Program-made: the position numbers and the translations under genes
Shown: piece by piece, positions 3,325-26,974 of the stretch
Layout: each line of letters opens with the position of its first letter
Numbering within the stretch: the stretch's first letter is position 1
Notes under the pieces: generated by a model
Databases searched by the model: none
What the model was told of the DNA's origin: nothing
Seen by the model: the letters and a program-made list of their open reading frames with translations, nothing else
IMG/VR virus record: IMGVR_UViG_3300037427_000692
Coordinates: 1 to 28,998 of that record
Reading direction: 5' to 3' (one strand)
Length of the DNA: 28,998 bases
From: a virus

Positions 3325-4906
3325 GCGTCATCACCTCCACATATCGCGGTAGCGTTTCCGCTACTTGAGCCTTTAGGAGTTGGTATTTTGAACCCAAGTC
3401 CACATTCTGTGTTCCTTCGGGTAATAACACGCTTCGGTCGTCCGATAAAATCAAATCCATCGCTACAAGTTTAGTGCATATATCTTCGATTGCTTTTTCC
3501 ACATAGCGCTCTCCATATACATATGAAACCTTAACAGCGTTCCATGAGAAATAGGGGTATGTGTTATTGAAGTAAATTATACCTAAGTCGTAATCAGCCC
3601 ACCAATCCCGCAAACGCGCTTCATCACCTGTTGTTCCTCCAACATAATCAATACTGAATCGAGTTTGATTTACAGAAGCACCACCTGTTGCCGCCGCGCT
3701 TATATCTCCTGTAAGGTCAGCAACACCTGTTAGTTGATTACCTGTTTTACCTGTGTAATATCCAATGGCTGAACCAATTTTAATAAGACCATATTCAGCA
3801 AAAGAATCCGCAGTAACAAGTGTAATTGTATTTGATGTGGATGATGCTACCTCTCCTAAGAAAGAATTAGCGCCTGTGATACTGATACCGTCTTCATCTG
3901 TTATAGCGATAGTAGCGGTTTCTCCTGCATCACCACGACGCATAGAAGTGATTTTGACTTGACCTCCACCATAGTCTGCGTTTGCAGACGACATAAACTC
4001 ATGATGAACATTCGCTACAACTGAACCATCATCGGCTTCTGCGTCTTCAAGACTGAATGAAGGAGAAAACAAAGTTGCGCTTTTACCGCGTCTCAAATCT
4101 TTATTGATAAGGTCGGACAATTGTTGCGCGGTTGTAACATTATCAAATTGAGCATTAAACTTTGATTTGGTAGTTCCTGCTGTGAGAGTAGCGATGCCAC
4201 CACCACCCGGACATAGATACACTTTGTCTGTATCTGCTGTGAGTTTAGTAAAGTCAAGGACTTTCAAGCGCACTTCTGCGCAAGCAATCTCGCGATATTC
4301 ATGTCCTTGCCATACTTCAAGTCGAAGTATTTGCTGAACATTACGGAAATAGAGTGGAACTGAACCAACATAATCTGTATAATATCGTCGTCGGTATGGT
4401 TTGTATGTATCGAAATTAACATATTCTGCTGTTTGTAGCATAGGTCGCCATGAGTTATTTGTAAGGTTGTCAATCTTGTCTTGAGTTCGTTGAATTAATG
4501 TTTCGACTTGTTTCTTTGTTATTCCTTTACGCTTGCCGTTTGTAAATGATTGTAGCGGTTGAATATACGCTTCATCTGCTGTGTCGTAATCACCCGTTGT
4601 TCCACCAACCCATGTTATGACGACATTGCTACCATCGCGCGTAATTGATGTTATAGTAACTTCTTCTCCCATTTCAACATCACTCGCGATTTCAATTTTA
4701 TCACCAACTTCAAAGCCGGTATGTCTGTAATCGCTCGCTGTAATAGTAGCAGTTGTAGCGCCTGTATTAGAATCACTCGCGAGATAAACAGGGTCGGGTA
4801 GCGGTATCTGTAAAATGTCCGCTACTTTCTGTGCTGATGTATAGTATAAGCGCGTAGGGTCAAGTGGTCTTGATGCTCGCTCTCCTGTTTGAAAAACGGT
4901 TGGCAT
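3317..4906 (-). CDS. Head-tail connector/adaptor-like protein with beta-domain insertions
   Basis: This 529-aa protein has helical segments that look like a neck adaptor: KKQVETLIQRTQDKIDNLT near residues 130-150, and AIEDICTKLVAMDLILSDD with a following helix in the last 60 residues. Between and before them lie two long beta-rich stretches. One is at about residues 35-120 with a GFEVGDKIEIASDVEMGEE segment, and the other at about 200-440. The core with beta insertions would make it several times larger than the small gp6-type adaptors. Its position three to four genes upstream of the tail tube fits. The start at 4906 follows AGGGGGCAATAATA. The adaptor call rests on gene order and helix pattern, not on a recognised motif. 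Confidence 0.5.
   Translation of the reverse strand: MPTVFQTGERASRPLDPTRLYYTSAQKVADILQIPLPDPVYLASDSNTGATTATITASDYRHTGFEVGDKIEIASDVEMGEEVTITSITRDGSNVVITWVGGTTGDYDTADEAYIQPLQSFTNGKRKGITKKQVETLIQRTQDKIDNLTNNSWRPMLQTAEYVNFDTYKPYRRRYYTDYVGSVPLYFRNVQQILRLEVWQGHEYREIACAEVRLKVLDFTKLTADTDKVYLCPGGGGIATLTAGTTKSKFNAQFDNVTTAQQLSDLINKDLRRGKSATLFSPSFSLEDAEADDGSVVANVHHEFMSSANADYGGGQVKITSMRRGDAGETATIAITDEDGISITGANSFLGEVASSTSNTITLVTADSFAEYGLIKIGSAIGYYTGKTGNQLTGVADLTGDISAAATGGASVNQTRFSIDYVGGTTGDEARLRDWWADYDLGIIYFNNTYPYFSWNAVKVSYVYGERYVEKAIEDICTKLVAMDLILSDDRSVLLPEGTQNVDLGSKYQLLKAQVAETLPRYVEVMTLE
3330..3338 (-). promoter_or_regulatory. Shine-Dalgarno site setting a TTG start
   Basis: On the minus strand this reads GGAGGTGAT and ends five bases before the TTG at 3324. 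It pairs over nine bases with the AUCACCUCC end of 16S rRNA. It lies inside the coding sequence of the upstream gene. It is the strongest such site in the window and justifies the unusual start codon. Confidence 0.7.
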
Positions 4907-4908
4907 TA

Positions 4909-5133
4909 TTATTGCCCCCTTCTTGCTTGCTCTTCTGCTATTTGCGCTTCTAATCTATCCACTTCTGCTTTTTTTTCCGTTACAAGTCTTCTTAATTCTT
5001 CAAAGTGTGGTGCGTATTCTTGCTCAATGCGTTGGTTATCTTGTTGCTTTTGTTGTTCTCGACGCGCTTGCTCTTCTGCAAGCATTCTGCCAATTTCAGC
5101 AGGGTCGTTTTTGAGAAGAAGAATACTAAACAT
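4909..5133 (-). CDS. Small coiled-coil protein, function unknown
   Basis: This 74-aa protein is dominated by a charged helix: EEQARREQQKQQDNQ, then ELRRLVTEKKAEVDRLEAQI and a closing EEQARRGQ. The heptad-like spacing predicts a coiled coil over about residues 15-70. The short N-terminus (MFSILLLKNDPAEIG) is hydrophobic but too short to be a confident membrane span. The ATG at 5133 overlaps the upstream stop as TGATG and has AAGGTGATTTG in front. A TTG one codon earlier is possible. Its place in the neck cluster suggests a small virion or assembly protein. Confidence 0.6.
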   Translation of the reverse strand: MFSILLLKNDPAEIGRMLAEEQARREQQKQQDNQRIEQEYAPHFEELRRLVTEKKAEVDRLEAQIAEEQARRGQ

Positions 5134-7835: not shown

Positions 7836-9263
7836 TCACTCTCCCCTCAATGCTTTGTTGGCTATGCGGTGAACATCGTCCCACGACATATTAGCCATTT
7901 CCGTAGTATCGGGAATTGTAACTGATGTGGACGAAACACTCTTAGTGAGTGTTTCTCCACTACCGGATGAAACGCGGCTGATGCGGTCATCAAGTGCAAC
8001 AACAGCCTTTTGTAATTCAAGAAGAGGTTTGCGGGAGTCAAACTTTGCTCGCGCTTTCTCATTCTTTGCAATTCGCTGTTCTTTAGATAGGCGGTCTGCG
8101 AAGTAATCTCCGAGAGAGCCTTTGAATTGTTGTTCGACTGATGCCGCCTTATACACTTCGTAAGCGGCTTCAATATCGGATTGAGAAACATTTTCGGGCA
8201 TGATAAAATCTGCCTTAATTACATTCTTATTACCGCTTGGAGCGCTACCCCAATTTTGCTTAGGTCGCTTTGAGGACTCGCCTTCACCTGCTCCTTCAAG
8301 AGAACCTTGTCCTCTATGGTCGTAGCCGGATTGTCCGGGTCCATATCCTTTATTCACGCTATCGAAATGTGCGCGAGCATCTGCAATATCATGTCCGTTG
8401 GACTTTGCAGTTCGCTCAAGCCAATTAAGATAGTCCATTGTTATCATATCATCTGCTTTATTTGTCATGTCATCACCATACATCATGTCTTCATCCTCGT
8501 CATCTTCATCTTCATCATCGTCTCCGAGTCCGAGGTCGAGTTTTGGTTTGTCCTTTTTAGGAGGGAAAGGCGCGTCGTCTCCGCCATCATCATCCATTGA
8601 AGGTGCATCATCACCCATTGGAAAACCTTTGTCGGAGTCTTCATCGTCTTTCTTCTTTTTATCATCGTCTTCTTCATCATCCAATTTCTTGGAGAGTCTT
8701 TCTAATACGCTTTGCAGTTCGCTCATTGGGTCAGTCATAGTATCACCTGTGTCTTCCTTGAGGATGCGAAATTGTGCTTCGGGGTTAATTCCCTTCTCAC
8801 AAATCGTTACCTCATGGAGTTCCATACGACGAATCTCACGGTAATCACCGCGAGTAGCGTCGCTTTTGTTGACGCGCTCAAAGGCTTGACCGCCTATTGA
8901 GAACGACCGAAGGTTGCCCTTTCGGATTTCGGATGCAACTTCGCGAGCCTTTTCGATGTCGCCGCGTAGTTGAATAACAACAAACATGCCGGTATCATCC
9001 ACTTCGGATTTCCAAACACGACCGTTGCTATCTGTGTAAGAAGGGATTACCGTTCCTACTTGAATGTTAGAGTGTGCAAGTTGCACATTGCGGAATGCTT
9101 CTGCTTTCATGAATCCGCCAAATGCGTCTTTCAAAGCGCTACGAGTAATAAGGTCGCCTTGCTTGTCAACCATCTCGACAGAAGCATAGCCCGCTACAAC
9201 CAAATCATCACCGAATCCCTTGAGAACAAGGGGTGAAGTGGGTGAAGGTGCGAGAATTGCCAT
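7836..9263 (-). CDS. HK97-type prohead protease fused to an acidic/helical scaffold-like extension
   Basis: The 475-aa protein begins with a serine-protease domain of the HK97 prohead protease (S78/XkdF-like) type over about residues 15-170: VVAGYASVEMVDKQGDLI, then LAHSN with the likely catalytic His, RSFSIGG with the likely Ser, and ELHEVTICEKGINPEA. It then runs into an Asp/Glu/Lys-rich stretch (about 195-265) and a helical tail ending in MSWDDVHRIANKALRGE. Protease-scaffold fusions are known in HK97-like viruses, and this layout fits one. It would cleave capsid and scaffold during maturation. I prefer the ATG at 9263. A TTG four codons earlier is possible, and neither has a clear Shine-Dalgarno site. 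Confidence 0.85.
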   Translation of the reverse strand: MAILAPSPTSPLVLKGFGDDLVVAGYASVEMVDKQGDLITRSALKDAFGGFMKAEAFRNVQLAHSNIQVGTVIPSYTDSNGRVWKSEVDDTGMFVVIQLRGDIEKAREVASEIRKGNLRSFSIGGQAFERVNKSDATRGDYREIRRMELHEVTICEKGINPEAQFRILKEDTGDTMTDPMSELQSVLERLSKKLDDEEDDDKKKKDDEDSDKGFPMGDDAPSMDDDGGDDAPFPPKKDKPKLDLGLGDDDEDEDDEDEDMMYGDDMTNKADDMITMDYLNWLERTAKSNGHDIADARAHFDSVNKGYGPGQSGYDHRGQGSLEGAGEGESSKRPKQNWGSAPSGNKNVIKADFIMPENVSQSDIEAAYEVYKAASVEQQFKGSLGDYFADRLSKEQRIAKNEKARAKFDSRKPLLELQKAVVALDDRISRVSSGSGETLTKSVSSTSVTIPDTTEMANMSWDDVHRIANKALRGE

Positions 9264-9289
9264 CGACCCGTTCAAGCGCTACAAGTATA

Positions 9290-15543: not shown

Positions 15544-15880
15544 AATAAAAGTCTGTTAGATTAAACGCACTTTTCGGACTCTTATCGGGTTCGCCACCTG
15601 CATCATTTTCATGAGCAGACAAAGCATCATCATGAGCAGAATGTTGCTTAGACTCTAAATTGATTTCTTCTTTCTTAGGTTCAGTTCTCTTAACATCTTC
15701 AACTTCTATCAGTTGTTGGTTAGTATGATATTGACCCGGCCTTACCTTTTCAACACCGCGAACGCTTTCAAACGCATCAGCATTCTTAGAACCAAACTTA
15801 CCTTCAACCTTCTTTGCTTCTTTGAGAACTGCTTCTAAATCGGGCGCGTGTTCACCTGCTTCAACTTTCATTGGTTTCAT
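15542..15880 (-). CDS. Small charged protein, function unknown
   Basis: This 112-aa protein is strongly hydrophilic, Glu/Lys/Asp/His-rich, and begins MKPMKVEAGEHAPDLEAVLKE. A helix at about residues 14-30 is followed by mostly disordered-looking sequence with EVEDVKRTEPKKEEINLES, and the chain ends with a hydrophobic FNLTDFY. The ATG overlaps the stop of the upstream gene by four bases (ATGA), with AGGAG upstream. The setting between portal and the giant protein suggests a virion or scaffold-associated protein. No family is recognised. Confidence 0.55.
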   Translation of the reverse strand: MKPMKVEAGEHAPDLEAVLKEAKKVEGKFGSKNADAFESVRGVEKVRPGQYHTNQQLIEVEDVKRTEPKKEEINLESKQHSAHDDALSAHENDAGGEPDKSPKSAFNLTDFY

Positions 15881-16224
15881 TGGTCCACTCTCCTACCTTC
15901 GTTATGCGCGGCTGTGTTAGCCATCATGTGAATATCCTCCCAAGACATTTCGTGCCATTCTTCATTTGTTGAAGGCATCGGAACACCCATCGCTTCGCTC
16001 ATTTCTTTAGAGGCTTTGGAAATAACTTCATCTCGTTCTCCACGAAGCGGGTCGCCCCATACATCTTCACTTGCAGGAGTTATGGCTTTAACGAAACCGG
16101 ACTTGCGAAGCATGGTTTGGGGATTAGATACTTGCTTTCGCAACATACCTAACTCGGCATCCATCGCCTCCATTTTACCAATAAGTGCTTTCATTAACAC
16201 CATTGCGTCGGCTTCTTGAGACAA
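15877..16224 (-). CDS. Small scaffold-like protein ending in the D-[IV]-H motif (TTG start)
   Basis: The 115-aa product begins MSQEADAMVLMKALIGKME and forms a likely N-terminal coiled coil (residues 1-33). It has a MLRKSGFVKAITP linker and a C-terminal MSWEDIHMMANTAAHNEG that closely matches the end of the protease extension. It starts at TTG (16224), two codons after the upstream stop, with AGGTGTGAT nearby. No in-frame ATG serves better until residue 8. The coiled coil plus the shared C-terminal helix is what one would expect of a small scaffolding or capsid-binding protein, which is inference. Confidence 0.6.
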   Translation of the reverse strand: MSQEADAMVLMKALIGKMEAMDAELGMLRKQVSNPQTMLRKSGFVKAITPASEDVWGDPLRGERDEVISKASKEMSEAMGVPMPSTNEEWHEMSWEDIHMMANTAAHNEGRRVDQ

Positions 16225-16227
16225 GTA

Positions 16228-16569
16228 TCACACCTGCCCTTGCTTCTTGAAAACGCCACCAATTCTATCCGGGCCAACATAGCCCAAAGGTCGCGATTCT
16301 CCTTTAGCAATGACATTTTCGATACTGTTGAACTGCATTACAGGAACACCGCCCGCGTATCGGTCATTGATACCTGTAATCTTAACTTCGGTTTGAGATT
16401 TGTAAATAGCGGTAACATCATCAGCAAGGAAATCACTTGTTGTTTGGATGCTTCGCAAAAACTGTTCTGCTGATACAAGGTCGTTATTAGATAGCGCTAC
16501 TTTGAACTCGGCCATTGCCGTTTCTAACTTGCGCACCATAGGGTCCATCTTATTGAGAAGGTCGCTCAT
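16228..16569 (-). CDS. Small virion-region protein, function unknown
   Basis: The 113-aa protein has an N-terminal amphipathic helix region (DPMVRKLETAMAEFKVAL and AEQFLRSIQTTSDFLADD) and a beta-rich C-terminal half (SQTEVKITGINDRY...GVPVMQF...GYVGPDRIGG). It lies just after the portal gene and starts at ATG 16569 without a convincing Shine-Dalgarno sequence. The nearest G-rich stretch is about 15-20 bases away. It is possibly a portal-associated or head protein. No family is recognised. Confidence 0.55.
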   Translation of the reverse strand: MSDLLNKMDPMVRKLETAMAEFKVALSNNDLVSAEQFLRSIQTTSDFLADDVTAIYKSQTEVKITGINDRYAGGVPVMQFNSIENVIAKGESRPLGYVGPDRIGGVFKKQGQV

Positions 16570-16607
16570 GGACTAAGCCATTACCGCGCAACCTTTGAAT
16601 GTATCGC

Positions 16608-18458
16608 TCAATTAAAACCGCTTTCTTGGTTCTTACTTGTTGGGTCTTTAGCGGCTTCAACTGCATCAAGAGCCTGTTCTGTAACAGTTTTTTCCGACCC
16701 TCTTTGATTCTTTTTTGTAGTAGGCGCACCACTCAAATGGGTTTCTGCTGAAAGTGGTGCAGGTCCATTATCGCGCTGTCCTGTGCCTTCACCAAGACCA
16801 ACCGCACCGGCTTTCTCCATCATCATGATTGATTGACCCCCTCCCGATGCTCCGCCTTGAGGCGGTAGCCCCCCGCCGCCTTGAGGCATCATTGCACCGC
16901 CCATTGGAGGTGAGCCTTGAGGTGGCGGCATAGGCGCTCCGCCCGGCATCGGAGGTGGCATCCCGCCCGGTGGTGGATTACCGCCCGGTGGCGGTGGCGC
17001 ACCACCACCCGCAGGAGGTTGTTGTGGTTGAGGTTCGGGTTTTGAATAAGTGAATCGTATATCGCTCCCTGCATCTTCTGTAAGTTCTGCTTGGAATCCA
17101 AGTTGTTGCATGCGCTGTGCGATATTTACTTCTTGTTCATCACGGCGTAGCCTTGTTACATCATCCTCTTCTTCGTTCGGATAGAGAGTCAATTCCCATT
17201 CATCAACGCCCATCTCTTTCAATAGACGCGGGAATAGATTTTTAGCATAGATTTTTTGTCCGTATTCGACAGCGCGATTAGTAACAAGGATTTGCATTCC
17301 TTCATTATTCAAACCGCCGGACTTTCCTGCATCCATCATAAAGATGCTTGAAACACCATAGAATGCCGCTATACGCATTCTTACTTCATCACGGATTTGA
17401 GAATACTGCATTTCATCGAGCGAATCCATAAATCGAACAAACTCAACTTTACCACGACCGGATGCTGATTCAATACCAACTTTAGGAATATAATGCGGGT
17501 CGCGTTCCATTTTCTCTTCTGCACCTTTCCAAAAAGAAGCAGTTGATTGGATATTATCTGTGGTGATTGCAAGAATACCGCGAGGGATTCTGCGCTTTTG
17601 GTATGCGAGATAAATATAATTATCCATAGCAGTAAGAGTTTGTGCTTGTCTCCACATAGTAGCGACAGGACTACGACCATATAATTTAGAAGGATTATAT
17701 TTACTTGTGTGAAGAATCTCTCCATCAATGTAATACTGTGTTTTACCACTACCTGCTGTATTGATGTAATGAACATCTTGTAGCGGTAGTTGACATACAT
17801 CACACTCATGATAATCGCCATTGTGAGGATATGTTTTATCGCGATGAACAGGGCATATGAGATACCTACCACCTCGCGCTCCGCGTTTATCAGCAACTAT
17901 TCTCATGAAGGTTGGGTCGCCACGCATAACTTCTTTGATTCGGAAAAAGGCTATCTCGCCGTTATCGGGGTCAATGAAATACTCCTTGATGAGAATTAAA
18001 AACGCATCATCAACAATGTCTAAATCCCATTCAACTTCGCGCATAACATCCATGAACGATTGGTCCATGCTGTTTCTTTGCTCTAACAGCCAACGCGGGT
18101 ATAAAACTTGGTCCACATCGGGTGATTCAAACTCACTCATACCACATAAACGACAATCTTTAACCGTATCATGTTGGTATTCCTCTTTACAGTTGGTGCA
18201 TTTCTTATGAAACTTCTTCTGCCAATAGTGGCCGCGTCTAAATACTTCTTGACAAAGTGTATTAATTGTGGTTCTCAATACAACTGATTCTTGAACCGTT
18301 GCGTAAAGAGCAGGAATGCTTACACCTTGAACAAGAACCGGCTCTTGAATACCACTTTTCCAAAGTGGCATAATAGGTTCGGGCGTGGTGCGTCTGCGGA
18401 ACGGTTTAGATAATGATGATAAGAACCGGCCAACAACACCTTGCTTCTCTTCAACCAT
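16608..18458 (-). CDS. Portal protein with two zinc-finger insertions and Pro/Gly-rich tail
   Basis: This 616-aa protein follows the terminase module. The core reads like a portal: VQESVVLRTTINTLCQEVFRRG near residues 55-76, WDLDIVDDAFLILIKEY (144-160), GEILHTSKYNPSKLYGRSPVA (246-266), YLAYQKRRIPRGILAI, and RDEVRMRIAAFYGVSSIFM (356-374) followed by a GLNNEGM helix. Unusually, it holds two cysteine clusters, C87/C90/C102/C105 and C202/H205/C219/C222, that look like zinc ribbons. From about residue 473 to 540 the chain is Pro/Gly-rich. The portal forms the dodecameric DNA gate at one capsid vertex. The ATG follows AGAGGTTGATTTGAT. Confidence 0.85.
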   Translation of the reverse strand: MVEEKQGVVGRFLSSLSKPFRRRTTPEPIMPLWKSGIQEPVLVQGVSIPALYATVQESVVLRTTINTLCQEVFRRGHYWQKKFHKKCTNCKEEYQHDTVKDCRLCGMSEFESPDVDQVLYPRWLLEQRNSMDQSFMDVMREVEWDLDIVDDAFLILIKEYFIDPDNGEIAFFRIKEVMRGDPTFMRIVADKRGARGGRYLICPVHRDKTYPHNGDYHECDVCQLPLQDVHYINTAGSGKTQYYIDGEILHTSKYNPSKLYGRSPVATMWRQAQTLTAMDNYIYLAYQKRRIPRGILAITTDNIQSTASFWKGAEEKMERDPHYIPKVGIESASGRGKVEFVRFMDSLDEMQYSQIRDEVRMRIAAFYGVSSIFMMDAGKSGGLNNEGMQILVTNRAVEYGQKIYAKNLFPRLLKEMGVDEWELTLYPNEEEDDVTRLRRDEQEVNIAQRMQQLGFQAELTEDAGSDIRFTYSKPEPQPQQPPAGGGAPPPPGGNPPPGGMPPPMPGGAPMPPPQGSPPMGGAMMPQGGGGLPPQGGASGGGQSIMMMEKAGAVGLGEGTGQRDNGPAPLSAETHLSGAPTTKKNQRGSEKTVTEQALDAVEAAKDPTSKNQESGFN

Positions 18459-18459
18459 A

Positions 18460-19884
18460 TCAAATCAACCTCTCTATACGGTGAATATCGTCCACAAGGC
18501 GGATAACTTCATTGTCCCGTTGTCCCCATGCAAGAACTTCATGCTCTTCAACTTTCCACTCTCGAAGTAGTTTGTCGCGCTCATCGGGAACATCTTTCCA
18601 ATTTTCCCACTTCACAATACGGTAAAGTTCTTCTCTTCTCGACTTAACAAGGTCGCTTTTAGAGCCTCTTAAATCAAGTAAATGCATTACCGCATTTGCT
18701 TGACTCTTCTTCATTTGTAAGTGAGGCGTTATACCTTTGAGTAATTTGCGCAAATCATCCGCCCCATAGAATTGAAGACGATGTTGTGTGCGCTTACTAT
18801 TCTTATGTATTTTCAAATCAGTTTGCAGAACTCCACATCCGAGAGATTTATGCAATTGTTCGCAATGTAATTTACCCCTACCCCCCGTTGCTACAAATCC
18901 TGCTCTTGGTTCTCCGCGCTTTGTGATTGTAATATATCCATCAGCGTCAAGGAAACCTGCGGCATAAGCCCATATATCTTTAACGATAACCATATTGTCT
19001 TGTATGATACCGTAATTCGTTCCTATTCTTTCAATCTCATATTCGATACCATGCATTTTCAATAAAGATGCCATCTTTCTTATCGTTAAATGTTTAGGTG
19101 AACCGATAGAATTGTAAATCTCATTTGAGGATAGCGGACCCCTTTCTGTTAGAACATTCGCTGATTGTGTGAGCCATATTGCTTCTTGTTTTTTTATCTC
19201 ATCTATCGGATGTAATGACTTTCTCCATTGAGATTTAGCATCTTTTCTCATCTGTCTTGAATCAACCCATAACTGTAATTGTTCTTCATTAAAATCACCT
19301 TCGACTTGAGATAATTTAGTAATAACATCATTTGCTTTTTCCCACATAGCGCATGCTCTTCGCAAAGAGACTTCGCGCGTAACACCGTGTTTCCTCAAAG
19401 CGTGTAAGTTTCTATCGGAAACACCAAGAGCGCGTATAGAGGATAAATGGTTATCAGCCCACGGAATAGATTTCAATGTTGATTCGACCTCTTCTCGTTT
19501 TGCGATTCGTATTGCGTTGATAGCAAGGTCAATATCATCACGCATATCTTTTCTATCGCGACGAGCCATGCGTAATTCTTTCACCATTGATTCAGCATCT
19601 TTTCCAAACATTGAATGAAACCAACCATTATGAGGCATGGCACTTTTGAGTTGTTGAGTAGGTTGAACAGGTTGTTGTTGAGCAACAACATCTTGGATTT
19701 TCTTTTTCTCTTCTTCTTCTTCTTTAGCATCCGGTTGCGATGCAACAGAAGGGGCGGCTAATTCACCTTCACCTTGCGATGCAGTATTAGTGCCATCACC
19801 CATATCGGGATTAGCGATTGTGCCTGTCGCCTTTCTTAAAATAGCATTTATCTCTTCATCTTTCAAAATAGAACCCGTCCACAT
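18460..19884 (-). CDS. LAGLIDADG homing-endonuclease domain protein between terminase and portal
   Basis: The 474-aa product has a helical, charged N-terminal half. It includes an EEEEEKKK run near residue 55, MARRDRKDMRDDIDLAINAI at about 106-125, and a helix-hairpin-like LGVSDRNLHALRKHGVTR. A winged-helix-like region (about 250-295) and then a single LAGLIDADG motif, YAAGFLDADGY (306-316), follow. The typical downstream pattern is present: LHKSLGCGVLQ, HRLQFYGADDLRKLLKGI, PHLQMKKSQANAV. The final residues, VDDIHRIERLI, echo the assembly motif of other genes here. One motif implies a homodimeric nuclease that cuts and may spread its own gene. The ATG forms TAATG with the terminase stop. The flanks may be an original virion protein. 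Confidence 0.75.
   Translation of the reverse strand: MWTGSILKDEEINAILRKATGTIANPDMGDGTNTASQGEGELAAPSVASQPDAKEEEEEKKKIQDVVAQQQPVQPTQQLKSAMPHNGWFHSMFGKDAESMVKELRMARRDRKDMRDDIDLAINAIRIAKREEVESTLKSIPWADNHLSSIRALGVSDRNLHALRKHGVTREVSLRRACAMWEKANDVITKLSQVEGDFNEEQLQLWVDSRQMRKDAKSQWRKSLHPIDEIKKQEAIWLTQSANVLTERGPLSSNEIYNSIGSPKHLTIRKMASLLKMHGIEYEIERIGTNYGIIQDNMVIVKDIWAYAAGFLDADGYITITKRGEPRAGFVATGGRGKLHCEQLHKSLGCGVLQTDLKIHKNSKRTQHRLQFYGADDLRKLLKGITPHLQMKKSQANAVMHLLDLRGSKSDLVKSRREELYRIVKWENWKDVPDERDKLLREWKVEEHEVLAWGQRDNEVIRLVDDIHRIERLI
18550..18987 (-). mobile_element. LAGLIDADG nuclease domain (possible homing element)
   Basis: This is about residues 300-445 of the 474-aa protein. The motif has Asp at the position of the metal-binding acidic residue (FLDADG), with the conserved downstream strands and helices, so it looks intact. 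Single-motif enzymes cut as dimers. No intein splice motifs (Cys/Ser start, His-Asn end) are evident around it, so it is not read as an intein. Confidence 0.65.
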
Positions 19885-21284
19885 TAATCAATCAACCCCG
19901 CCATCATATCATCAATATCGACTATTCGTTCTCGGAACTCGGTAGTTCCCCAATGCGCTAAAGCAAGCGCGATAGCAAAGTCATCGTGGCGACCGATGCT
20001 ATCCAACTTGCCCTTCTTCGACATGCCGAACATAAGTAGTTCCCGTTCTAACTCGCTCATAAGGGTTCGGGAGTTTTCATCACCCCACGGTAATCTCATT
20101 TGCTCTTTCTCAAATCGCATAACTAATCCCATAAGGAGGGATTCTCGGCGTTGGCGTGTGGATATAAATGTCTTGATTGGTAAGTCGGTGTCCGCGCGTA
20201 ATTCAGTTGCGAACACTCGCTGAAAATTGTTGGCTTCAAGTTCTATCACATCGGGATTGAACTTCGAGTTGATTTTTTGTATCTCCATAATTTGTGTGCG
20301 AAAGTCCATATTCTTTCTGCGAACAACATGAACCAACTCAAGAAGTTCGGGATTTGTTGATGGACGACGAAGCACTACCATAACGGTGTAATCTGCACTT
20401 CTGTCCGATGAGATAGCAGGGTCCCAACCGACAAAGTATTGGTCATCGGGGTCGCCATCTGCGCGATTGATAATTCTTAAATCGCTATCTTTCGCGGCTT
20501 GAAGAACCAAAGAAGGAAACAAACTGCTCATATCATCCATTGGTTCACACAGGTATTCGCGAGCGAATGCAATAGCGGGCATGTCATTTCTGCGCGCATC
20601 AAGAGAATCTAAATCCCAACGCTCCGGCCAAAGCGCTACACCCTTAGCATTGATAGCAGGGTATGTTTCAACAAGATAACCTTCGCGTTGTTCTAATTCC
20701 GTGTAAAGGTCAGTCGGTGTGAACGGTGTTCCTACAATCATAAGTTTAGAAGAGTGGTGGAGTGTAGGCACAAGAACCTCATAAAACCAACTCGCTACTC
20801 TTTGGAGTTCGGTATCTGTTGTTCCCCAAAGAATATCGTCGCATAGAATAAGGTCGGGGTGAATACCACGAATAGCACCACCAACGGACTTTGCGCTAAT
20901 GTTAGAACCATTAGAAAACCCAAAGAATGTTTTTGACCAAGAATCCTGCTTTTTCATTTTCGCCAAGAAAGGTATTCCATCTATAAGGTCATTGAGTGTT
21001 CTCATGTGATGTATAGACTGATGCAAACTGTGGCTGATAAGAACGGCTTTGCATTTAGGATTGAATGCTACTTTCCAAAGCAGGAAGCCAAGAAATAGCG
21101 TTGATTTTCCGTGGTCCCTTGCCGCTTTTACACAATAGCGCTTTTCGTTTTCGAGATTATTATACCATCTTTCGTGATGATGTGATAACTGAAAGCCAAG
21201 AATATCTTCAAAGAAGAACTTGAAGTCGCGCTTAGCAACCTCGTAATCTATCTCTTCAAGCGTTTCAAGGCTTAAGCCCTCCAT
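19884..21284 (-). CDS. terL: Large terminase subunit (DNA packaging ATPase-nuclease)
   Basis: This 466-aa protein powers DNA packaging and cuts the DNA. The ATPase part shows a Walker A motif AARDHGKST (54-62), a Walker B LILCDD (145-150) and the coupling segment GTPFTPTDLY (185-194). The nuclease part shows GWDPA (286-290, Asp288), VIELEAN (346-352) and GRHDDFAIA (431-439). All expected acidic residues are present, so both activities should be intact. The length is within the usual range, with no intein or intron. GAGGTGAATGCCCT precedes the ATG. The next gene starts inside its stop codon. This is the firmest functional call in the window. Confidence 0.93.
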   Translation of the reverse strand: MEGLSLETLEEIDYEVAKRDFKFFFEDILGFQLSHHHERWYNNLENEKRYCVKAARDHGKSTLFLGFLLWKVAFNPKCKAVLISHSLHQSIHHMRTLNDLIDGIPFLAKMKKQDSWSKTFFGFSNGSNISAKSVGGAIRGIHPDLILCDDILWGTTDTELQRVASWFYEVLVPTLHHSSKLMIVGTPFTPTDLYTELEQREGYLVETYPAINAKGVALWPERWDLDSLDARRNDMPAIAFAREYLCEPMDDMSSLFPSLVLQAAKDSDLRIINRADGDPDDQYFVGWDPAISSDRSADYTVMVVLRRPSTNPELLELVHVVRRKNMDFRTQIMEIQKINSKFNPDVIELEANNFQRVFATELRADTDLPIKTFISTRQRRESLLMGLVMRFEKEQMRLPWGDENSRTLMSELERELLMFGMSKKGKLDSIGRHDDFAIALALAHWGTTEFRERIVDIDDMMAGLID

Positions 21285-21291
21285 AGGGCAT

Positions 21292-22853
<1,562 letters not shown>

Positions 22854-22857
<4 letters not shown>

Positions 22858-24659
22858 ATTAATGCCTCCAAACATGACGCTTTGATAATGTCAACCACAT
22901 CGCGCCCTACTTGAAAATGTTCCGCTACTTTTGACCAATCACCAATGCTCATCGCGATAGCGCGAACATCTGTTGATTCAAGGTCAAGTTGTTTTGCTAA
23001 AACCCTCATATCGTTTCCGCTATAAGGGTCGAGATTTTGATAATGAACACTTTTCATAATTTGTGCATTTTCCCATGTGTCATGCATTTGAACTCGTTCC
23101 ATAACTGCCGCAATAGCACCCATAGGGTCATCTTGCGAGGTCAATACATTGTTTTGGTTGTTGCGCGTAGCAACTGTTCCTTCGGGTCCGAATGGGTCTG
23201 TTGGTGAAGGCTGTTGAGTAGTTTGAACATTCAAAGGTAATCCTCCACCTGCACCGCCGGGTGGTAATTGTTGATTGTCTTGCATTGGGTCATAACCACC
23301 TACACTGATATGGTCGGGTATTTGGTCATGCAAATGCCCTAAGTCTTCTGTTACACGCCCATGCATGTAATGATGTTCTTGAGCAATTCCCATATTAGAT
23401 AAATCAACAGGTTTTCCTCCTCGTTGTATAGCGAAAGATTTCCAACCACTAATAACTGATGCAGGAGGCTTTGTAACCCCAAGTGCAGGTGTAATATCCA
23501 CTCCTAACTCTTCTGCTGTTTTGAGAGTTGCTAAGATTCTCTTAGCGGCATCTGTTCTGCCTCTATCTGCACCTCCAACTCGACCATCGAAATGACTTCT
23601 ATGCTTGTGATACATGTCCGATATTGTATTATCTTTCTTCTCTCCGTCAATACCAATGTATTGTTGTATTCTATTAACGATATTATTGAGTTGTGTTGCT
23701 GAACCTTTTTTGCCTCGACCCATAATTAATTGCGCGGCAGGTGCGCGAGCCATATTTTCTGCCCTACGCGATGAAACACCTTCTCCTATCAGCGCTCGTA
23801 TGACTTGAAGCGGCGGTCTGCCTTTTGAAGTAGGCACAAAGAAAGCATCGGGTAATGATGCGATTATATCAGCAGGTCTAATCTGTCCGTATTGTGTTTT
23901 TTCATTATATTTTTCCGACCCGTATTCGGGAAAATGGTGATTATCTTTACTTGTTGGGTCTTTCATATTAGAATCATACCTTTGAAGAAGGCTTCTCATC
24001 TTATATGACCCATCAGCCATTTTTTCGGGTGCGCGAACAATATGTTGAGGCTCAAGAACATTTTGTCTTGAACCTAAATCACTTTCCACACCTAAAGCAT
24101 TGATGATTTTACGGAACTCTTTCTCGAAATGAAAGGCCCCCGATTCAAGAAATCGACCAAGAGTAGGATGCGCTACACTATTAAAGAACAAATTAATGAG
24201 ATTACCTTTCTCATCGCGTGTTTTTCTTGAAGAAGTAGGCACTCTTCGTGCTTCATGCGCCCCATAATGGTTATTTTTGTATTCGGCATGTAGCGAACCA
24301 TCCGCTTGAAAAGGAATAGGAACGGTATGATAATCGTCTCCATTCTGTCTTTTTATTCTATTGAAATCAATAGCGGCTTTATTCATTATCTTCTTAGCCT
24401 CTTGTAGCGCTAAATTACCCGGAAACATCTGTTTCATCTTCTTGTTATCTGCAAGATACCTCGCCGCCGCCTCCATAGGCCAATAGCGCATATTATCGGG
24501 TATTTCAGCATGCGGTTTTCCGGTTTGGTGGTCGATATGAAAATGAGACATCTCTTTATGCGGTGATGAAGGATGAGGGAATGACATAGGAATCATTTTC
24601 CCTCCTGCTCCGCGCTTATAGACACCTTTACCCTTAAGGATTATATCATTATCAAACAT
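22854..24659 (-). CDS. 601-aa protein upstream of terminase, function unknown
   Basis: I start this protein at ATG 24659, which shares bases with the upstream stop (TGATG) and follows AGGGGTGG. The open frame extends 16 codons further, but that part lies inside the upstream gene. The N-terminal 60 residues are His-rich and read like a small folded unit (IILKGKGVYKRGAGGKMIP, then HFHIDHQTGKPHAEI). The middle, residues about 180-430, is helical and basic. A Pro/Gln/Gly-rich linker (about 460-520) leads to a last helical segment (LESTDVRAIAMSIGDWSKVAEHFQ) that could be a helix-turn-helix or UBA-like bundle. No known domain is recognised. It is probably a virion component. Confidence 0.55.
22866..22870 (-). 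promoter_or_regulatory. Shine-Dalgarno site deciding the start of the 521-aa gene
   Basis: GGAGG on the minus strand lies eight bases before the ATG at 22857 and downstream of the alternative ATG at 22875. It favours the shorter start. It sits within the last codons of the 601-aa gene. Confidence 0.65.
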
Positions 24660-25852: not shown

Positions 25853-26277
25853 TATACATCACCATCACATAATGATTCAAAAGTCCTTTGGAGAACACTC
25901 GCTATATTGTAATAAAATAAACATACTTGTTCATTTTCCTTAAATGCGGATGCGTATGCGCTAAAAATGGTATGTATCGCTAATAACATATGCGCTAAAA
26001 TAGATTGCGCGTGTATAAACTTCTCCCCATCATCAACTGTCATAATTTTGAATTGAGTTTCCACATCTCGGATTATACCTTTATGAGTATGATACTCGGC
26101 ATATATATGCGGAGCCATATTACTAACAGCGTGATGCCAACGCTCTATAACATAATGCATCAATTTGAAAAAAAGACCATATTCATCAGTTGTCAAAGAA
26201 CGCGTTATCTGTAATAATTCGCTATCATCAATATCTTGACATTGAATGAAAGGAACGAAAATACTAACCTCACTCAT
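25852..26277 (-). CDS. Helical protein of 141 aa, function unknown
   Basis: I start it at ATG 26277, which overlaps the stop of the preceding gene and has GGTGAG four bases upstream. A GTG three codons earlier is possible. The protein looks mostly helical: LLQITRSLTTDEYGLFFKLM, HYVIERWHHAVS, IHAQSILAHMLLAIHTIFSAY, YYNIASVLQRTFESL. It contains several His and two internal hydrophobic helices, but these are amphipathic rather than membrane-spanning. Its place right after the possible small terminase suggests a packaging or head role. No family is recognised. Confidence 0.55.
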   Translation of the reverse strand: MSEVSIFVPFIQCQDIDDSELLQITRSLTTDEYGLFFKLMHYVIERWHHAVSNMAPHIYAEYHTHKGIIRDVETQFKIMTVDDGEKFIHAQSILAHMLLAIHTIFSAYASAFKENEQVCLFYYNIASVLQRTFESLCDGDV

Positions 26278-26974
26278 CACTCTCACCCATCAATTTACCT
26301 CTCAATTTACGCCACACTTCGGGCGATTCTTTGGCTAATTCAACCTTAAGAATGTTTATTGTTTGAGCATTGATATTTTCAGTTATATTACCTGCCGCGC
26401 GGTCTTGTATCTTCATCATCATATTGACCGTATCGCGAACTTCTTTGTGTAGCGAAACGATGTTACGCACATATTGAGGGTCATTACGGTCGGCATCATC
26501 AAGAAAATGCGATAATTCACCGTTAAGACGAGAAAGATTCCCGCGTATGGAGTTCATTTCATTACCCGCCTCGATAGCAATTATATCTGCCGCACCTTTC
26601 TGCACGATAGGTTTGAGATGGTGTTTCAAATGATGATATACACTCGACTCCGGCATATCAATATCAACCGCTATCGCTTGTGTTGACATAGAGCCATTAT
26701 AATATGCATGTTCGAGCGATTCGCGTTTCAAAGATGTGCAAAAACCACATTCGCTATTTGACCCCATATGATACTCTCCCATATGGTTACGAAGATGACG
26801 GTCAGCAGTTCCTTCACGCCATTCTTTATCCTTATCTAATTGCTTAGCAATAATAAATCCATCCTTCATCAATTGCTCCAAACTATCTCGTTCTTCATCT
26901 TGACAAAAGGGACAAGATGCTCGCGTAACTCTTTCGCCCACATATGAGTGCAGAACGAAACACTTGAAAGTCAT
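26270..26974 (-). CDS. Tandem zinc-finger/HTH protein, possible small terminase
   Basis: The 234-aa product carries two copies of one unit: C21-P-F-C24 with H60/H64, and C76-G-F-C79 with H115/H119. Each has [KE]R[DE]SLE after the cysteines and a HL-x-x-H helix at the end. The second unit ends in a helix-turn-helix-like QAIAVDIDMPESSVYHHLKHHL. The C-terminal half is helical (ELSHFLDDADRNDPQYVRNI, EVRDTVNMMMKIQDRA) and may oligomerise. A DNA-binding front and oligomer-forming back, upstream of terL, suit a small terminase that recognises the packaging site. A transcription regulator is the alternative. The ATG at 26974 has no clear ribosome site. A GTG at 26941 is possible. Confidence 0.55.
   Translation of the reverse strand: MTFKCFVLHSYVGERVTRASCPFCQDEERDSLEQLMKDGFIIAKQLDKDKEWREGTADRHLRNHMGEYHMGSNSECGFCTSLKRESLEHAYYNGSMSTQAIAVDIDMPESSVYHHLKHHLKPIVQKGAADIIAIEAGNEMNSIRGNLSRLNGELSHFLDDADRNDPQYVRNIVSLHKEVRDTVNMMMKIQDRAAGNITENINAQTINILKVELAKESPEVWRKLRGKLMGESDE

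Follow-up and report, generated by a model that had tools for sequence, protein, structure and literature searches.

A LAGLIDADG-type endonuclease gene kept between terL and portal in the packaging module of magrovirus-like viruses

We examined a virus record of 28,998 bases (IMGVR_UViG_3300037427_000692, positions 1 to 28,998; hereafter the window), in which the minus strand carries the long genes, together making up a head-and-tail module. The module comprises terL, the gene studied here (NUC), portal, genes for three small proteins and for a 2079-aa protein, and then those for an S78 prohead protease, a major capsid protein of SU10 type and a tail tube protein. NUC (18460..19884, minus strand) is an ORF encoding a 474-aa protein with helical, winged-helix and LAGLIDADG parts, and its limits are exactly those given in an earlier sequence-only reading of this DNA. 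The neighbours named in that reading were likewise recovered by profile matches: the terminase large subunit (TerL; 19884..21284, minus strand; phrog_38, E = 2e-59) and the portal protein (16608..18458, minus strand; phrog_18178, E = 7e-75), the latter matching the portals of Druskaviridae at ~30%. The gene had been described as overlapping both neighbours. This holds for terL, with which the NUC start shares 1 nt of the stop codon (TAATG), but not for portal, which starts 1 nt after the NUC stop (TGATATG).

An AlphaFold model of NUC, computed from 26 alignment rows, has a mean pLDDT of 77 and a pTM of 0.43, so that the domains are well predicted and their mutual arrangement is uncertain. The N-terminal tail (residues 1–87; 19624..19884, minus strand) is variable and largely disordered (low pLDDT), and it is mostly absent from the group typified by locus L376, whose proteins are 380 aa long. 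It is followed by a helical domain (residues ~88–230; 19195..19623, minus strand), a winged-helix domain (residues 231–295; 19000..19194, minus strand; pLDDT ~90) and the LAGLIDADG endonuclease domain (residues ~301–435; 18580..18984, minus strand). The N domains, including the helical domain, are homologous between the two clades of relatives described below (hhalign E = 5e-15). The helical domain matches no family, and the Foldseek and VIA-align rows reach the winged helix only; we make no claim that its fold is new. The winged helix matches known winged-helix folds at Z scores of 8.5 and below, a middling value that is evidence of the common fold and not of function. The model bears out the long helical N-terminal half noticed in the sequence-only reading, which had missed the winged helix at the end of that half.

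The C-terminal domain carries a single LAGLIDADG motif, YAAGFLDADGY (residues 307–317; 18934..18966, minus strand), as had been recognised from the letters of the sequence. Because the Pfam match to LAGLIDADG_3 (PF14528) has an E-value of 0.095, below the Pfam cut-off, the assignment rests on fold, active site and conservation. A sequence search of the PDB with NUC found I-MsoI (E = 1.4e-5), and the AlphaFold model superimposes on I-MsoI, I-CvuI and I-CreI with Z scores of 10.9–9.4 and an rmsd of ~2 Å over ~82 residues of 301–390. The profile phrog_5046 matches NUC over residues 305–408 (E = 1.6e-10) and also matches 26/26 relatives. Although annotated as "HNH endonuclease", this family hits the LAGLIDADG domain of all these relatives, and its name may be wrong; Pfam gives no HNH match in NUC. 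By motif and predicted fold, the domain is a member of the I-MsoI/I-CreI-type LAGLIDADG superfamily.

Across 205 distinct proteins, residues D313, D315, R336, R369, K392, N428 and D431 never vary. D313 and D315 lie in the motif, and D315 is, by its place there, presumably the counterpart of the I-CreI catalytic acid D20; K392 (codon at 18709..18711, minus strand), aligned by hand with I-MsoI, we take to be the counterpart of the I-CreI active-site lysine K98. Since NUC has one LAGLIDADG motif, a homodimer is to be expected by analogy with I-MsoI and I-CreI, and NUC is probably an active, homodimeric LAGLIDADG endonuclease. NUC shares with I-MsoI, I-CreI and I-CvuI the single motif, the fold of residues 301–390, the motif acid and the active-site lysine. 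Those enzymes, however, are intron-encoded and mobile, whereas NUC is fused to a winged-helix half and occupies a fixed slot outside any intron or intein: there is no match to a HINT domain in NUC (Pfam) and no intron in 16000–22900 (Rfam).

The C-terminus of NUC reads VDDIHRIERLI and resembles MSWDDVHRIANKAL of the protease gene and MSWEDIHMMANTA of p115, but without the W. The proposal that this tail carries an assembly motif of the operon did not survive comparison with relatives: DD[IV]H[RM] is confined to 11/205, which all belong to the nearest relatives, and no relative has W[DE]D[IV]H. The protease (7836–9275, minus strand), p115 (15877–16224, minus strand) and p527 (21292–22875, minus strand) have similar short motifs at their C-termini (MSWDDVHRIANKAL, MSWEDIHMMANTAA and SWDSLLKRLNVR). 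Separately, many late-module proteins encoded upstream of terL or portal begin with M(x)W..[IL]LK ("MSWKDILK", "MTWFDILK"). The pattern lies within the first 25 residues of 18/108 ORFs in record G008 (L467–L471) and 12/118 in G007 (L472–L476), against 0.14 in shuffles, these counts including paralogues, so that the cases are not all independent; it is also present at L264, L290 and L294. By analogy with the T4 capsid targeting sequence, it could serve to direct proteins to the head. For NUC itself, a W..ILK tag at the N-terminus is suggestive in the nearer clade and absent from the L050 clade and the L376 group, and we do not claim one.

Viral contigs were searched with NUC, with TerL, with portal, with the N-terminal half by itself and with lead sequences from distant clades. 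The nuclease ORF was present between terL and portal, on the same strand, in 380/380 loci that hold both genes. Many of these loci are overlapping fetches of one contig, and the 207 distinct ORF sequences that they hold are the fairer count. Approximately half of the loci were found with NUC as query, which biases the sample towards presence; the scans of viral contigs with TerL and portal, which are free of that bias, likewise gave no locus without the nuclease. The sampled loci span two clades, between which the TerLs are ~37–42% identical, and the slot is constant even where other genes, spanning as much as 2.5 kb, lie between NUC and terL or portal. At one locus (L301) an HMG-CoA lyase-like gene (4174–5007, plus strand; PF00682, E = 4e-30) lies between NUC and portal, and metabolic genes thus enter this interval. 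A tblastn search of 50,697 annotated phage records gave no match to NUC. The sole match in genome_contigs (L243, PAUP01000076.1) is on a viral contig with this module that is filed under a Cytophagaceae MAG, probably a binning error, and that equals IMG/VR locus L084 in both length and match.

The sequence-only reading had described the nuclease as embedded in a packaging-module gene, had offered as one of two inferences that it had invaded and fused to a virion protein gene, and had pointed to orthologues without residues 300–445 as the evidence to look for. We sought such orthologues and found none: every one of the loci with both flanks carries the protein in the same slot, which is the outcome that the earlier reading had named as refuting an insertion. 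Among 494 ORFs with the N-terminal domain, 485 run in frame into the nuclease, two (L048, L050) are frameshifted, so that the nuclease lies in the next frame, and the other seven run off the end of the contig or fetched piece; the scan with the N-terminal half alone revealed no nuclease-less version besides such truncations and frameshifts. Two fetched relatives have no intact ORF, L226 (short ORF) and L050, and the frameshift of the latter is isolated, its own relatives having intact ORFs. A recent insertion into a nuclease-less gene was therefore rejected, and the description of the nuclease as embedded was not confirmed. The in-frame fusion and the homology of the N domains of both clades indicate that the composite protein is ancestral to the sampled group. 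A fusion event older than the whole group may have occurred, but nothing in the data points to one.

The nuclease domain is the best-conserved part of NUC, with a mean majority conservation per 20-residue block of 0.54–0.78 over residues 301–440, compared with 0.38–0.57 over residues 81–300. Over 171 close pairs, the nuclease domain has a median dN/dS of 0.050, compared with 0.048 in TerL, 0.062 in the portal and 0.089 in the N half. The pairwise identity of the nuclease domain follows that of TerL (r = 0.957) and of the portal (r = 0.951), values that are descriptive because the pairs are non-independent. In trees of 144 representatives, with conflicts counted at support ≥ 0.95, the nuclease-domain tree conflicts with the portal tree at 2/33 splits and with the TerL tree at 6/33, the latter somewhat commoner than conflicts of TerL with portal (4/55); portal conflicts with TerL at 6/73. 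The traits of a mobile homing gene, patchy presence with empty sites and a history unlike that of the flanking genes, were thus not seen, the slot being always occupied, the correlation with TerL close and the supported conflicts few. A core gene would leave such a pattern, unlike a homing element that is gained, decays and is lost in cycles, and we hold with high confidence that NUC has been domesticated as a fixed viral gene, long kept and no recent invader.

The same data bear on the view that NUC is a selfish, free-standing homing endonuclease that has become fixed after spreading, through intronless homing or marker exclusion, by cleavage of the terL–portal region in viruses without it. 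Such an element would account for the homing-endonuclease fold and the intact active site. In addition, HVTV-1 has weak LAGLIDADG_3 places elsewhere in its genome that are absent from HCTV-5 and HCTV-1, so that mobile copies may occur in kin; their distribution is patchy, unlike that of NUC. We consider this view unlikely: none of the loci examined is empty, decay of the gene is limited to isolated frameshifts, the inheritance of NUC follows TerL and portal under constraint as strong as that on TerL, and the nuclease is almost always fused to a conserved winged-helix half.

Most long contigs of the relatives are 92–118 kb in length, 10/12 long contigs encode PolB, and some relatives have a split PolB, GroEL and HMG-CoA lyase. 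Traits of this kind have been reported from Aoguangviridae and further Poseidoniales magroviruses, a group said to be related to Druskaviridae (PMC10768690, PMC12999244). We compared our material with the magrovirus-type traits, namely a genome of 90–110 kb, an own PolB, an HK97-type head module and kinship with Druskaviridae. The size and PolB observations concern the relatives; from the 29-kb window itself come the S78 protease, the SU10-type capsid protein, the tail tube and the portal match to Druskaviridae. By these genomic traits the relatives resemble magroviruses (viruses of Poseidoniales), and kinship with them suggests that the window may belong to the same group. The contig of L275 (record G006, 184,733 bases) is approximately double the usual genome in length, contains PolB matches in two sets, and is perhaps two genomes joined in assembly.

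In Druskaviridae, gene 106 of HCTV-5 and gene 111 of HVTV-1 encode an HNH nuclease (PF01844, E = 5e-10 to 2.5e-7) exactly between terL and portal. We considered homology between these proteins and NUC and found none by hhalign. In two archaeal viruses that are more distant, vir335 (Methanomassiliicoccales) and vir519 (Methanofastidiosa), the slot contains no annotated gene, indicating that a nuclease in this position is not a general requirement. HNH genes that neighbour terminase genes are known to take part in packaging, and gp74 of HK97, an HNH protein, promotes cos cleavage (PMC9410871, PMC5304195). NUC resembles the HNH packaging endonucleases (HK97 gp74, HCTV-5 gene 106, HVTV-1 gene 111) in that its gene lies beside terL but differs from them in nuclease fold, so the shared position speaks for working alike and not for membership.

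Given the HNH nuclease of Druskaviridae in the equivalent position and the packaging role known for HNH genes next to terminase genes, we propose, with moderate confidence, that the domesticated LAGLIDADG endonuclease NUC acts site-specifically in packaging, as a fixed protein of the packaging module in a large group of marine archaeal tailed viruses. The single-motif domain would dimerise as in I-MsoI and I-CreI, and the dimer would cut the virus's own DNA, once replicated, at a pseudo-palindromic sequence about 20 bp long, with the helical and winged-helix half contributing DNA or partner binding. Together with TerL at the portal, NUC would then help start or end genome packaging, as gp74 does for HK97. 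The sequence-only reading had offered service in packaging as the alternative to invasion. The constant slot, the TerL-like purifying selection, the intact active site and the largely congruent history all fit that alternative; the function itself we infer from gene position and analogy. Clustering of contig ends was considered as a hint of fixed packaging termini and set aside, the ends appearing by eye to be scattered in long contigs. The wider proposal, that this entire group of archaeal tailed viruses uses an active LAGLIDADG enzyme and not an HNH enzyme as the built-in cutter of its packaging machine, a former homing enzyme having been made into a subunit that processes the genome next to terminase and portal, is more tentative, and we would put it at slightly less than an even chance.

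A different place in the same machine would be that of the small terminase (TerS), with the winged helix and the LAGLIDADG fold recognising the packaging site and TerL doing the cutting. TerS proteins combine a helix-turn-helix domain with a helical oligomerisation core (PMC9611059), and NUC adjoins terL and has DNA-binding folds and a helical domain. No TerS family matches NUC, which has a nuclease domain in addition to its winged-helix and helical domains. At 474 aa NUC is out of keeping with the ~15–21 kDa of known TerS, and its nuclease residues are invariant. There is, moreover, another conserved candidate upstream of terL in both clades, a Cys-rich protein of 234 aa (26270–26974, minus strand) that has two pairs of Cys and whose C-terminus (PEVW) is conserved; it is possibly the small terminase, though it too matches no TerS family. 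We judge the assignment of NUC as TerS to be as improbable as that of a selfish element.

Somewhat less probable still is a nuclease that is ejected or secreted to degrade the DNA of hosts or competitors, and whose gene lies here only owing to its late expression together with the virion proteins. The sites cut by LAGLIDADG enzymes are long and specific, a specificity poorly suited to bulk degradation. The late-module location and the many small proteins encoded in the same intervals would suit such a nuclease, but the slot of NUC is constant while its small neighbours vary. Least probable, and in our view very unlikely, is a regulator derived from a dead nuclease that binds viral or host promoters without cutting, as in WhiA, which like NUC is domesticated and joins a LAGLIDADG domain to a helix-turn-helix type domain but whose LAGLIDADG domain has no nuclease activity (PMC11701221), since D315 and K392 of NUC are invariant in all 205 proteins and every locus has its gene in the fixed position flanked by two packaging genes.

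Most of what is known of LAGLIDADG enzymes concerns selfish elements, and domesticated examples (WhiA, HO) are few. The HO endonuclease of yeast is a domesticated LAGLIDADG enzyme that is still active and has lost homing (PMC7282813); it is related to inteins and serves mating-type switching, whereas NUC is a single-motif protein of a virus packaging module. A LAGLIDADG-like string has been reported in HCMV pUL56, a packaging protein (PMC6950143); there it appears to be a short motif only, in contrast to the whole domain of NUC with its fold and active site. A search of the open-access literature, with the main magrovirus papers lying outside it, gave no link of a LAGLIDADG protein with archaeal virus packaging. 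The legend of an ICTV figure for Aoguangviridae explains the labels "endo" and "TerS/TerL", and, to judge from that legend, the NUC gene may already have been labelled by others.

In our reading, NUC is a domesticated homing-type enzyme in the place, and with the probable role, known for HNH enzymes. If this is true, a nuclease-competent copy held under TerL-like constraint in all examined members of an abundant ocean virus group would represent a new route of domestication, and the accessory-nuclease slot of the packaging machine would be one open to unrelated folds, with HNH in Druskaviridae, LAGLIDADG in NUC and nothing annotated in vir335 and vir519. NUC would thereby offer a testable entry to genome cutting and packaging in the uncultured viruses of Poseidoniales.
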